DNA from: Candidatus Hydrogenedentota bacterium
Lineage (GTDB): Bacteria; Hydrogenedentota; Hydrogenedentia; Hydrogenedentales; SLHB01
Direction of reading: 5' to 3'
Assembly: GCA_019695095.1 (NCBI GenBank)
Contig: JAIBAQ010000004.1
Span: 1-64,000, forward strand
DNA: 64,000 nucleotides
The stretch's first letter is position 1. Each line of letters opens with the position of its first letter. The translations under genes were made by a program, and so were the position numbers. Below the pieces are notes generated by a model. The model saw nothing but the letters and a program-made list of their open reading frames with translations. It searched no databases and had not been told where the DNA came from. Positions 272 to 21,683 of this stretch are shown piece after piece.

Positions 272-448
272 TTTGCGCACTCCGTTTTATGCAGAACAAT
301 GAACCGCGCAATCGCGGGCATCGGTGGCAGCAATATTGGTCAACTTAACGGCCATCATTCGACATCGGGTAACATGCCAACTGTTCAATCACTCACACGC
401 TCAGCCTTTCCGCTTAGCCCTTCCGCTCCGCTTCACCGGTCCGCTTCT

Positions 449-573
449 CCGGAGCGCTGCAAGCGCGAAATACTCTAGCCTGGGGTGAGATTCGCGTTTC
501 AGACGCGAATCGAAACCCCAGGTATCGACCCCCACCCAATATGAGCCCTGAAAGGGCGAAAGCAACTTACACG
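449..573 (-). repeat. Structured dispersed repeat, copy A
   Basis: This element of roughly 110-125 bp, read on the minus strand, matches copy B at 21338-21457 almost base for base over its central 95 bp. It can form three hairpins. Two 5-nt arms (545-549 and 553-557, GCCCT/AGGGC) flank a 3-nt loop. A large 44-nt palindrome (479-522) has an 8-bp outer stem, a small internal loop, a 9-bp inner stem and a 5-nt loop. A short GCGC/GCGC stem (454-457 and 463-466) closes the element. It is the only structure I see in the gene-free stretch 272-719 between the fucosidase and hydrolase starts. No transposase or coding potential is visible in it. Confidence 0.8.
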
Positions 574-17447: not shown

Positions 17448-18602
17448 TCAGGTATTTCCTCCGGAGGTATCTTCAAAATCCACTATCTCTGGCTCTGCGT
17501 CGCCCACATAATGATACGAGCGCGCCTTGACTCCATCCAAGAATACTTCGACCATGATTTCATCACGGAAACGAATCTTCTGATTCACTTTGCTTCCGGG
17601 ATCGAGGACCGGAGGCTTCCCGTCGACGTACTGCGCTTGCGGCGGGAAAATAGTCTGCCGTGCGCCATCTTTCGTAATGACGTCGATCCGGACTTCGCGC
17701 TGCATCCACGATTGCGGCACCGTGTACGATACCGTAACGTCACGCCATGCTCCCTCGATGGGGGTATCGCTGCGAATATCGAAGTAAACCCGTGTGCCGG
17801 GCGTAATGAGTGTTCCCGTGCCAGGCCTCTGATCGATTACGACATTCGCGGGGGCGTCGGGCCGATCGACTTGCACCGGAATCGCTTCGACCCCCAGCGG
17901 TTTCAGCGTCTTGATGGCATCCTGGCTCGTCATGCCGATGAGATTGGGCATGTAGAGCTGTTGCCCTTGGCCGGGGCCGCTGCTGACCAGCAAGTTGATC
18001 TTGCTGTTCTCGGGGACAGGTTGCCCGGGTGGGGGGTCCTGCGAAATCACCGTATTGGCGGGCGCTTGATCCGCTACACGCGAAATCTGGCCCTGCTGAT
18101 ACTGCGAACGGTCCAATTCGGCAATGGCCTCTTGAAGCGTCTTACCATGCAGGTCCGGTGCCGAAGCGAACTCCGTTCGGCTGACAGTGGGATAGACCTT
18201 TCTTCCCGAGCGAACGACCTTGCCCGCCGCGGGTGTCTGGTACATGACATAGTCCGGCTGCCACTTGTCGCTCGCACGCGCAGTCTGTGTACCCATCTCC
18301 AGACCGTTGGCGGTCAGTACCCGGGCCGCTTCCTGGACCGGCATGTTCGTGATGTCAGGGACGGTCACGCAGTTTGCGCCTTGAACCGCCTCGCTGAACA
18401 CGTAGTATCCCGATCCCGCCATGATTCCGATAAAGAACAAACCGGCAAAGAACCAACGCAAACACCACCAGACGAAGCCAAGACCGAACAGCGACGAGCT
18501 CAAGACGCCTTGCGCAACCGCATCAAGAAGAATCCGTCCATATTGCCGGCGTGGGGGAGGGTTCGATATGTTCCGGGACTTATTTTCCAAGGGTTGAGCC
18601 AT
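17448..18602 (-). CDS. Membrane-anchored PASTA-repeat protein without a kinase domain
   Basis: The protein has up to 384 residues: a short basic cytoplasmic start, one long hydrophobic helix (about 36-70), then three or more PASTA-like repeats. Each repeat has a P-(D/N)-(L/I) opening and an SQDPPPGQPVPENSKINLLVS-like close (for example VPDITNMPVQEA, APDLHGKTLQEA, MPNLIGMTSQDA). A beta-rich C-terminal domain covers about 285-380. PASTA repeats bind muropeptides or the cell wall. In Firmicutes they sit on PknB/PrkC-type kinases encoded beside rsmB and rpe, but here no kinase domain exists. ATG 18602 overlaps rsmB by 103 bp; a TTG at 18503 overlapping the rsmB stop by 4 bp (TTGA) is the alternative start. 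Confidence 0.85.
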   Translation of the reverse strand: MAQPLENKSRNISNPPPRRQYGRILLDAVAQGVLSSSLFGLGFVWWCLRWFFAGLFFIGIMAGSGYYVFSEAVQGANCVTVPDITNMPVQEAARVLTANGLEMGTQTARASDKWQPDYVMYQTPAAGKVVRSGRKVYPTVSRTEFASAPDLHGKTLQEAIAELDRSQYQQGQISRVADQAPANTVISQDPPPGQPVPENSKINLLVSSGPGQGQQLYMPNLIGMTSQDAIKTLKPLGVEAIPVQVDRPDAPANVVIDQRPGTGTLITPGTRVYFDIRSDTPIEGAWRDVTVSYTVPQSWMQREVRIDVITKDGARQTIFPPQAQYVDGKPPVLDPGSKVNQKIRFRDEIMVEVFLDGVKARSYHYVGDAEPEIVDFEDTSGGNT

Positions 18603-19831
18603 TTAGGTCCGTCTTCCAAAACCACGGGTAACGAAGATTCGGCAAACGCGCGAACATCCACTGTTTCGTCGCGGGTAAACGTGCACACGGAATACACAAT
18701 ACGGCCGCCATTTTCGCAGAGATCGACGGCAGCGCGCAATAATTCGCGCTGAACCGCGCCCATTCGCGCCGCGTCCTCCGGCTGTGCGCGCCACTTCAAA
18801 TCCGGATGCCTCCGCAGCGTGCCATACCCCGTGCATGGCGCGTCCAACAGGATTGCGTCGAATTTCCGTGCAAACGGCGCCATTCGGCCGTCGGCGGCGA
18901 TGGGGTGAATTCCGCGCAGCCCCAGCCGCTCCATGTTCTCGCGCACGAGGGCAAGCCGCTCCGCGTTGGCATCTGCCGCGACAATATTCAATTGCGAATC
19001 CGCGAGTTGGGCCAGGTGGGTGGTTTTGCCTCCAGGCGCCGAACACACATCCAATACCCATTGCCCCGGTAACGGTTGCATCAGGTGCGCCGCAAGCATT
19101 GAAGCCGGGTCTTGCAGCATGTATTGGCCCTGCTGAAAATGCTTCGATTTGAGCGGCGATCCCTTGATAACGGTCAGCTCCTCGGGAACGGCGGTACGCT
19201 TCTCCACCAGGAATTCGGCGTGAGTGAGATAGCGAGTGAGCTGTTCGGGCGTACACTTTGTCGTATTGACGCGCAGGGTCGTCGGGGCCTGCTCGTTACA
19301 CGCCGCGCACAACTTCTCCGCGGTTTCCTCTCCGAATTCCTCAATCCACTGCTCCACCATCCAGCGCGGCAACGAATACCGAAATCCCAAATGGCGGGCA
19401 AGCCCTTTCTCGCGCGGCGGAAGCTTGATGTCCTCAAGCGATCGCGGCGCGCGCCGAAGCACGGCGTTGACCAGTCGGGCTGTGCCCGCATGACCCCGTT
19501 TCCGCGCCACGCTGACGCTCGTGTGAACCATGGCCGGGAACGTCACGTTGTCGCAGAACAACGCCTGAAAGACCCCCATCCGCATCACCGCCAGAATGGG
19601 ACGCGGGAGTTTGTCCATTGGCTGATCCAGAATGCGCGAAAGGGCCAGATCGCAGAGCGCCTTGTGACGAACCGTGCCATACACCAACTGAGTCAAAAAG
19701 CGCCGCCCGCGTTCCGAGATGGTGGACTTCCGGAGCATTTGATCGAGCGCGTCGCTCAGAAACGCGCCTTCCTCAAACACGCGAAGAAGCACGTCGACGG
19801 CGGCAAGGCGTACAGGATCGGCCGGCGTCAT
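18500..19831 (-). CDS. rsmB: 16S rRNA m5C967 methyltransferase RsmB
   Basis: This 443-residue SAM-dependent RNA methyltransferase modifies C967 of 16S rRNA in characterised homologues. An N-terminal NusB-like RNA-binding domain (about 1-140) precedes the Rossmann methyltransferase domain. The SAM loop is DVCSAPGGKTTHLAQL; DAPCTGYGTLRRHPDLKW and YSVCTFTRDE carry the two conserved cysteines used in catalysis and product release. The C-terminus NMDGFFLMRLRK matches the family ending, so the gene really extends to 18500. Its ATG overlaps the fmt stop by 4 bp (ATGA), indicating translational coupling. Confidence 0.95.
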   Translation of the reverse strand: MTPADPVRLAAVDVLLRVFEEGAFLSDALDQMLRKSTISERGRRFLTQLVYGTVRHKALCDLALSRILDQPMDKLPRPILAVMRMGVFQALFCDNVTFPAMVHTSVSVARKRGHAGTARLVNAVLRRAPRSLEDIKLPPREKGLARHLGFRYSLPRWMVEQWIEEFGEETAEKLCAACNEQAPTTLRVNTTKCTPEQLTRYLTHAEFLVEKRTAVPEELTVIKGSPLKSKHFQQGQYMLQDPASMLAAHLMQPLPGQWVLDVCSAPGGKTTHLAQLADSQLNIVAADANAERLALVRENMERLGLRGIHPIAADGRMAPFARKFDAILLDAPCTGYGTLRRHPDLKWRAQPEDAARMGAVQRELLRAAVDLCENGGRIVYSVCTFTRDETVDVRAFAESSLPVVLEDGPKWLNPWKISPGTYRTLPHAGNMDGFFLMRLRKAS

Positions 19832-21142: not shown

Positions 21143-21337
21143 AGTCTCTCCTTTAACGGGCTCGCGCCCACGTTGTTCACGATGCCGGGAGTATACCCGT
21201 GCATTGGGCATAGGCGCAATGGACGTATCGAGAGCGGTCAAGTCGCAAACGGTTGAAGACCAATTTGGCAACGAGCGCCGCTTTGTTTTGAAGCCAGAGC
21301 CTTCGTCCGCCGGAGGCGGCCTCCTAAGAAACGGACC

Positions 21338-21457
21338 GTGTAAGGTTGCTTTCGCCCTTACAGGGCTCACGTTGGGTAAGGGCTGGTACCTGGGGTTTCG
21401 ATTCGCGTCGGTGACGCGAATCTCACCCCAGGCTGGAGTCTGCCGTGCCTGCGGCAC
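21338..21457 (+). repeat. Structured dispersed repeat, copy B
   Basis: This is the second copy of the element at 449-573, in opposite orientation. Hairpin 1 is GCCCT (21354-21358) with AGGGC (21362-21366). Hairpin 2 is the 44-nt palindrome 21389-21432, whose stems are identical to copy A and whose 5-nt loop differs (CGGTG against CTGAA). Hairpin 3 is GTGC (21445-21448) with GCAC (21454-21457). In copy A the same arms read GCGC and GCGC, so a C-G pair has become a U-A pair with pairing kept. That pattern suggests selection for, or transfer through, a folded form. Confidence 0.8.
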
Positions 21458-21683
21458 TTAAGAGTAAAGGCCGTCCGCTTGGCTTCTGTTTCTACCACGG
21501 AAACCCGCGCTCCCGCGGTCCCCCGCACAGGATGACAAGTAACGCGATCTCTCACGAACTGTCATTCTGAGTCCGCCTCCGGCGGATGAAGAATCTGGCA
21601 CAGGCTATTCGCGGGGGATCTTTGTTGTGGCGTGGTCTCCTGACCGCGCCACAGCGAGGAGATTTGAAATTCAGAGCGGGGAA

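Follow-up and report, generated by a model that had tools for sequence, protein, structure and literature searches.

The window analysed here, a stretch of 64,000 nucleotides from a Candidatus Hydrogenedentota bacterium, contains two copies of a dispersed repeat element, A and B, both of which apparently lie between divergent genes in the sequence as read. Each copy is made up of three hairpins, as listed below.

447-573, forward strand: copy A, over the extent of homology among the copies of this genome
about 453-563, forward strand: unit of copy A conserved across phyla, the conserved core of the cross-phylum copies
454-466, forward strand: copy A hairpin 1, GCGCT gca AGCGC
467-472, forward strand: copy A hairpin 1 tail, GAAATA
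475-478, forward strand: copy A hairpin 2 foot, CTAG, of which the conserved form is YAG
479-522, forward strand: copy A hairpin 2, lower stem CCTGGGGT/ACCCCAGG, upper stem GATTCGCGTT/GACGCGAATC
545-557, forward strand: copy A hairpin 3, GCCCT gaa AGGGC
558-563, forward strand: copy A hairpin 3 tail, GAAAGC
21338-21464, reverse strand: copy B, over the extent of homology among the copies of this genome
about 21348-21458, reverse strand: unit of copy B conserved across phyla
21445-21457, reverse strand: copy B hairpin 1, GTGCC gca GGCAC, with two compensatory pairs relative to copy A
21389-21432, reverse strand: copy B hairpin 2
21354-21366, reverse strand: copy B hairpin 3, GCCCT gta AGGGC

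The lower and upper stems of hairpin 2 in copy A are separated by an internal loop of the GA/GAA type. Copies A and B align over their entire length in inverted orientation, with the arms 453-566 and 21345-21458 being 83% complementary over 114 nt, and the three hairpins that an earlier note on this DNA had described as common to both copies are all found in each. That note also reported one compensatory change in the third hairpin, which is hairpin 1 here and comes third when copy B is read on the forward strand. A C-G pair of copy A does correspond to T-A in copy B, but the change is not single, as a T-A pair of copy A also corresponds to C-G. Similarly, the large stem, said to be unchanged, is identical except for its loop-closing pair, which is T-G in copy A and C-G in copy B, and its loop differs as claimed, with the triloop TCA in copy A and ACC in copy B.

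Copy B is bracketed by an 87% inverted repeat, GCCAGAGCCTTCGTCCGCCGGAGGCGGCCTC, at window positions 21293-21323 and 21569-21599. This repeat is part of another dispersed palindrome, GTCAT(C/T)CTGAG...GAAG(A/G)ATCTGG, which was seen close to 11 out of 30 copies of the element from this genome, and the element often adjoins half of the palindrome. At two other loci (L006 and L020), compared with the window copies, the 5' strand of hairpin 2, TTTCGATTCGCG, perfectly complements the opposing 3' strand, as though one arm had been recopied from its partner.

The element family and its fold

The covariance-model search proposed in the earlier note detected members of the family all over this genome and outside it as well. 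Searched by nucleotide sequence, the window's own genome (6.77 Mb in 405 contigs) gave 53 matches; a covariance model (R1) based on 30 copies recovered at least 57 copies of full length. Related elements that fold in the same way occur across the order and across phyla, and the element is present in 53 of the 68 genomes of the host phylum, a set that falls entirely within one order. The element is about 100 to 127 nt in length. In copies from many genera, hairpin 1 has 5 bp and a GAA-like triloop and is followed by the tail GnnATA; hairpin 2 stands on a [C/T]AG foot and has 8 bp or more, frequently with an internal loop; and hairpin 3 has 5 bp and a GAA loop and is followed by a second GnnATA tail. 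Hairpins 2 and 3 are separated by about 22 unpaired bases. The foot of hairpin 2 contains AG in about nine-tenths of copies and reads GTAG in 8 of 150. Conservation ends directly 5' of hairpin 1 and directly 3' of the second tail.

The earlier suggestion that the folded form matters is borne out by stems that covary both within the genome and across phyla, with compensatory pairs in hairpins 1 and 3 already seen among the copies of the window's own genome. In alignments fitted to the model, which makes the pair counts and the G-T excess given below lean towards it although not to an extent that could account for the pair counts, pairing holds in 98.8% of cells among 81 copies, with both-sided changes at 26 of 28 pairs; among 150 copies drawn from named genomes across many phyla, the corresponding figures are 98.9% and 17 of 18. 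The covariation of the 81 copies was matched by none of 500 shuffles; for the 150 copies, the both-side count was reached by 3 of 500 shuffles and the other measures by none. The pairing signal is lost when partners are slid. The fold is under selection. The likeness of copies A and B is not due to chance, because the genome has at least 57 copies of full length and covariation of the stems is seen both inside it and across phyla; a repeat limited to two copies without covariation, which the earlier note had named as the outcome that would speak against it, is not what was found.

The G-T pairs mark one strand as the folding one. Read in element orientation in the fitted alignments, G-T or T-G pairs number 69 and A-C or C-A pairs 9; the counts are 24 G-T to 1 A-C with one copy per locus, and 10 to 0 when loop-closing pairs are left out. 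A cruciform in double-stranded DNA would be expected to be symmetric in this respect, and the asymmetry therefore indicates that the folding molecule is a single strand, RNA or else single-stranded DNA. Hairpins 1 and 3 also have similar tails, which match at 3.61 of 6 positions within a copy as compared with 2.24 (sd 0.13) across copies, where the maximum in 5000 shuffles was 2.77. This contrast is not created by kinship, since relatedness between loci would weaken it. We read hairpin 1 with its tail and hairpin 3 with its tail as probable copies of one recognition module. Tandem arrays in which the hairpin 1 part stands alone or is fused to another spacer were seen in the window's own genome at C109:18337-18640 (L017) and C22:18995-19084 (L088), which suggests that sub-modules are also duplicated.

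A Y1 transposase gene flanked by the element

A nearby transposase, which the earlier note had recommended looking for, is present in the form of tnpA, a Y1 transposase gene (PF01797) that is bracketed by copies of the element here and in most genomes checked. The window's own genome has two tnpA copies, one of which (L088) lies on contig C22 in the following arrangement.

18269-18392, forward strand: element
18404-18850: tnpA, with one internal TGA stop and DYVH for DHVH
18856-18984, reverse strand: element

Because of these two defects, the C22 gene is probably inactive; the elements that flank it are among the better matches. The second tnpA, on contig C43 (L087), is intact, with an element 5' of it. 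The proteins encoded by the flanked genes have in common Y---Q--HH (75 of 80 named loci), DH[VI]H, WQ, and a C-terminal block ending in ...YDERYxWD, and motif, length, and C-terminal block place them, as judged from sequence, in subclass 1.2 of the Y1 HUH transposases. In NCBIfam they go under the name of IS200/IS605 transposases, and among relatives of solved structure IS608 TnpA and ISDra2 TnpA are nearest to them. Subclass 1.2 was described by Quentin et al. 2018 as being without IS properties, and Table 1 of that paper gives "no" under REP for this subclass (PMC6006769). At three loci (L104, L110, and L116), open frames extend upstream from tnpA through the element, giving peptides such as ALKGRNK, so that automatic gene calls may give tnpA false N-terminal extensions.

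The characteristic unit is convergent, with a forward element, tnpA, and a reverse element, and the gap from the element to the start or stop codon of tnpA clusters around zero. Within the host phylum, 23 of 24 subclass 1.2 loci have the element, 16 on both sides and 7 on one. Among 80 named loci, which are the best 80 of more than 581 matches and hence a non-random sample, 73 have it (53 on both sides and 20 on one), and the remaining 7 have none in the expected place. According to their record titles, these loci come from Bacteroidetes, Planctomycetes, Verrucomicrobia, Acidobacteria, Hydrogenedentes, Sumerlaeota, Calditrichota, Armatimonadetes, Fibrobacteres, and others. The element was beside none of the 28 other Y1 transposase loci of the host phylum that served as controls, made up of 20 longer PF01797 genes (by length and profile match), 1 NP-type gene of the window's own genome, and 7 IS200-type genes. 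Across the 68 genomes of the phylum, the element occurs in 43 of 43 with this tnpA and in 10 of 25 without it (two IS200-type matches being excluded from the count), and the resulting p=7e-9 is optimistic because of shared ancestry among genomes. The ten genomes that have elements and no detected tnpA may reflect loss of the gene or incomplete assembly. They would also fit a scenario in which the spread of the element is due to a different enzyme or to recombination, with tnpA recruited to its side either by chance or for expression control, but an association that is oriented, within a few nucleotides, common to many phyla, and confined to one subclass would be hard to obtain through recruitment, and we consider this scenario extremely unlikely.

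The element and the gene behave differently within genomes. Elements form convergent pairs in which hairpin 3 faces hairpin 3, and at a Calditrichota locus (L128) they are arrayed in regular alternation, spaced about 53 and 120 nt apart. tnpA is usually present as 1 to 6 diverged copies per genome, and sister species have it at orthologous loci. The elements next to it vary in number: on one side of the gene there is a single copy in G061, against three in that orientation plus one opposite in its sister G060, and one syntenic gap measures 249 bp with an element in G009 and 35 bp in G021. No clean empty site with exact ends was found in the sister pairs G009/G021 and G060/G061, in which divergence has blurred the ends. 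The gene is on 2 of 72,556 plasmids, none was found in phage records, and viral contigs gave one partial gene. This gene, a subclass 1.2 tnpA reduced to its C-terminal half, is at positions 1-234, at the edge of an IMG/VR contig (L199) that may be a misassigned chromosomal fragment. By analogy, a resident gene with spreading short repeats is the habit of a RAYT.

It could be argued that the flanking hairpins are instead the ends of an ordinary IS200-like insertion sequence and that the dispersed copies are its MITEs. The NCBIfam name would agree with this, as would the resemblance of hairpins 1 and 3 to paired end modules, and IS200/IS605 elements (TnpA subclass 1.1) have in common with the present system a homologous HUH transposase and the recognition of small hairpins on one strand, which for the element is assumed by analogy. 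The ends of IS200/IS605, however, are single hairpins on one strand, whereas the flanks here are whole three-hairpin elements that are mutually inverted, and clean IS boundaries were not found. In addition, tnpA does not appear to be multiplied, keeps its synteny between sister species, and hardly occurs on plasmids or in phages, and the 7 IS200-type genes of the same phylum are without the element. We consider an IS200-like origin of the flanks and of the dispersed copies very unlikely.

By rough gene calls, 16 copies of the element lie in codirectional gaps, 11 in convergent gaps, and 6 in divergent ones. A role as a terminator is not favoured, given this spread over all three kinds of gap and the apparent position of the window copies between divergent genes.

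Acido-Lenti-1 and the RNA alternative

Acido-Lenti-1 is an uncharacterised predicted sRNA of Acidobacteria and Lentisphaerae (RF01687; Weinberg et al. 2010, PMC2864571). The family came up in a permissive Rfam scan of relatives of the element; the whole window gave nothing against Rfam at the gathering level. Copy A matches RF01687 in antisense with 24.6 bits, where the gathering cut-off is 37 bits, and copy B also scores under the cut-off, while many relatives score above it. In the scanned loci there are 51 places that match at the gathering level, at least 3 of them counted twice in overlapping loci, and all overlap elements (one of them partially), always antisense to them and with coverage confined to hairpins 2 and 1. 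Matches are found in 42 of the 68 genomes of the phylum, with up to 72 per genome, and in 0 of 14 control genomes. The 46-nt Acido-Lenti-1 model corresponds to the reverse complement of the element's hairpin 1, tail, foot, and hairpin 2, and so differs from the element in strand, in having half the length, and in being annotated as an sRNA gene. Acido-Lenti-1 looks like half of a REP-like element read antisense.

The alternative to be weighed against this is that the element is a structured ncRNA family, namely Acido-Lenti-1, or a cis-acting RNA, in which the transcript is selected and the link to tnpA is secondary. Such a role would suit the strand-specific fold and the Rfam sRNA entry that covers part of the element, and a 2026 paper suggests that Acido-Lenti-1 copies may regulate nearby genes, proteases in the case of Tannerella. 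The Rfam model, however, is limited to hairpins 2 and 1 and lies on the strand opposite to that marked by G-T pairs. The element is also present in tens of copies per genome, sits in codirectional, convergent, and divergent gaps (rough gene calls), and flanks one transposase subclass tightly, in a fixed orientation, and on two sides over many phyla. We give the RNA alternative very little credence. The evidence favours a mobile-element reading of Acido-Lenti-1 copies over regulatory RNA, although single copies may have acquired a regulatory role. The earlier note had proposed either a small non-coding RNA or a REP-like repeat; the latter is supported, and a small RNA is not needed, RF01687 being the antisense of half of the element.

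A proposed REP-like element and its cognate enzyme

We consider it likely that the repeat is a non-autonomous, REP-like, three-hairpin DNA element that is mobilised in trans by its cognate enzyme, the Y1 HUH TnpA of subclass 1.2. A copy of the element would become single-stranded, for example on the lagging-strand template, and TnpA would bind the hairpin-plus-tail modules and the YAG-footed central hairpin of the folded strand. Action on a folded single strand is expected because the enzyme is homologous to TnpA-IS200 and TnpA-REP, and, like these, it would cut and rejoin the element strand. The elements would in this way be copied or moved in trans and multiply, while the tnpA gene would mostly stay put, as RAYT genes do. 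It is possible, if not quite probable, that the unit of about 100 nt is a complete minimal single-strand mobile element in a cross-phylum REP class whose enzyme is TnpA subclass 1.2, formerly an orphan, and that Acido-Lenti-1 is its antisense half-read and not an RNA gene. Hairpin 1 and its tail would then be the left end and hairpin 3 and its tail the right end; a TnpA dimer would bind both, and the YAG hairpin would lie in between.

The closest parallel is with REPtrons, in which REP, BIME, or REPIN repeats are paired with TnpA-REP (RAYT) (PMC6006769, PMC3733652, PMC8266576). Both systems have dispersed palindromes with a strand-specific hairpin, inverted copies flanking tnpA, pairs and alternating BIME-like arrays, and a low-copy, vertically kept Y1 HUH gene, and hairpin 2, standing on [C/T]AG, is similar to a REP with a GTAG foot. 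However, a REP has 20-40 nt and one hairpin on a GT[AG]G foot, while the element has about 100-127 nt, three hairpins, a YAG-type foot that only infrequently reads GTAG (8/150), and two matched hairpin-plus-tail modules, which the REP lacks. The REPtron transposase also belongs to class 2, with Y---NP, in contrast to subclass 1.2 with Y---Q--HH. The TnpA-Y1 of subclass 1.2 as published (PMC6006769) agrees with the flanked proteins in Y---Q--HH, DH[VI]H, a length of about 150 aa, the C-terminal block, low copy number, and the presence of Bacteroidetes among its hosts. It differs in having no REP partner, where here an element flanks most loci, and in its hosts, which were mainly Cyanobacteria and Bacteroidetes as against the many more phyla seen here. 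A search of the literature other than subscription papers and preprints returned no prior description of the repeat sequence or of triple-hairpin REPs and no follow-up on subclass 1.2 that describes the element.

The element is a likely substrate for a transposase subclass that was reported without one, and it would add to the REPs a class with three hairpins and paired recognition modules. It also suggests what lies behind an Rfam family of unknown function, lately read as a possible regulatory RNA, and care must be taken that such copies are not annotated as sRNA genes. Cultured hosts that carry the element include Terriglobus albidus and Kaistella haifensis, making the question directly testable.
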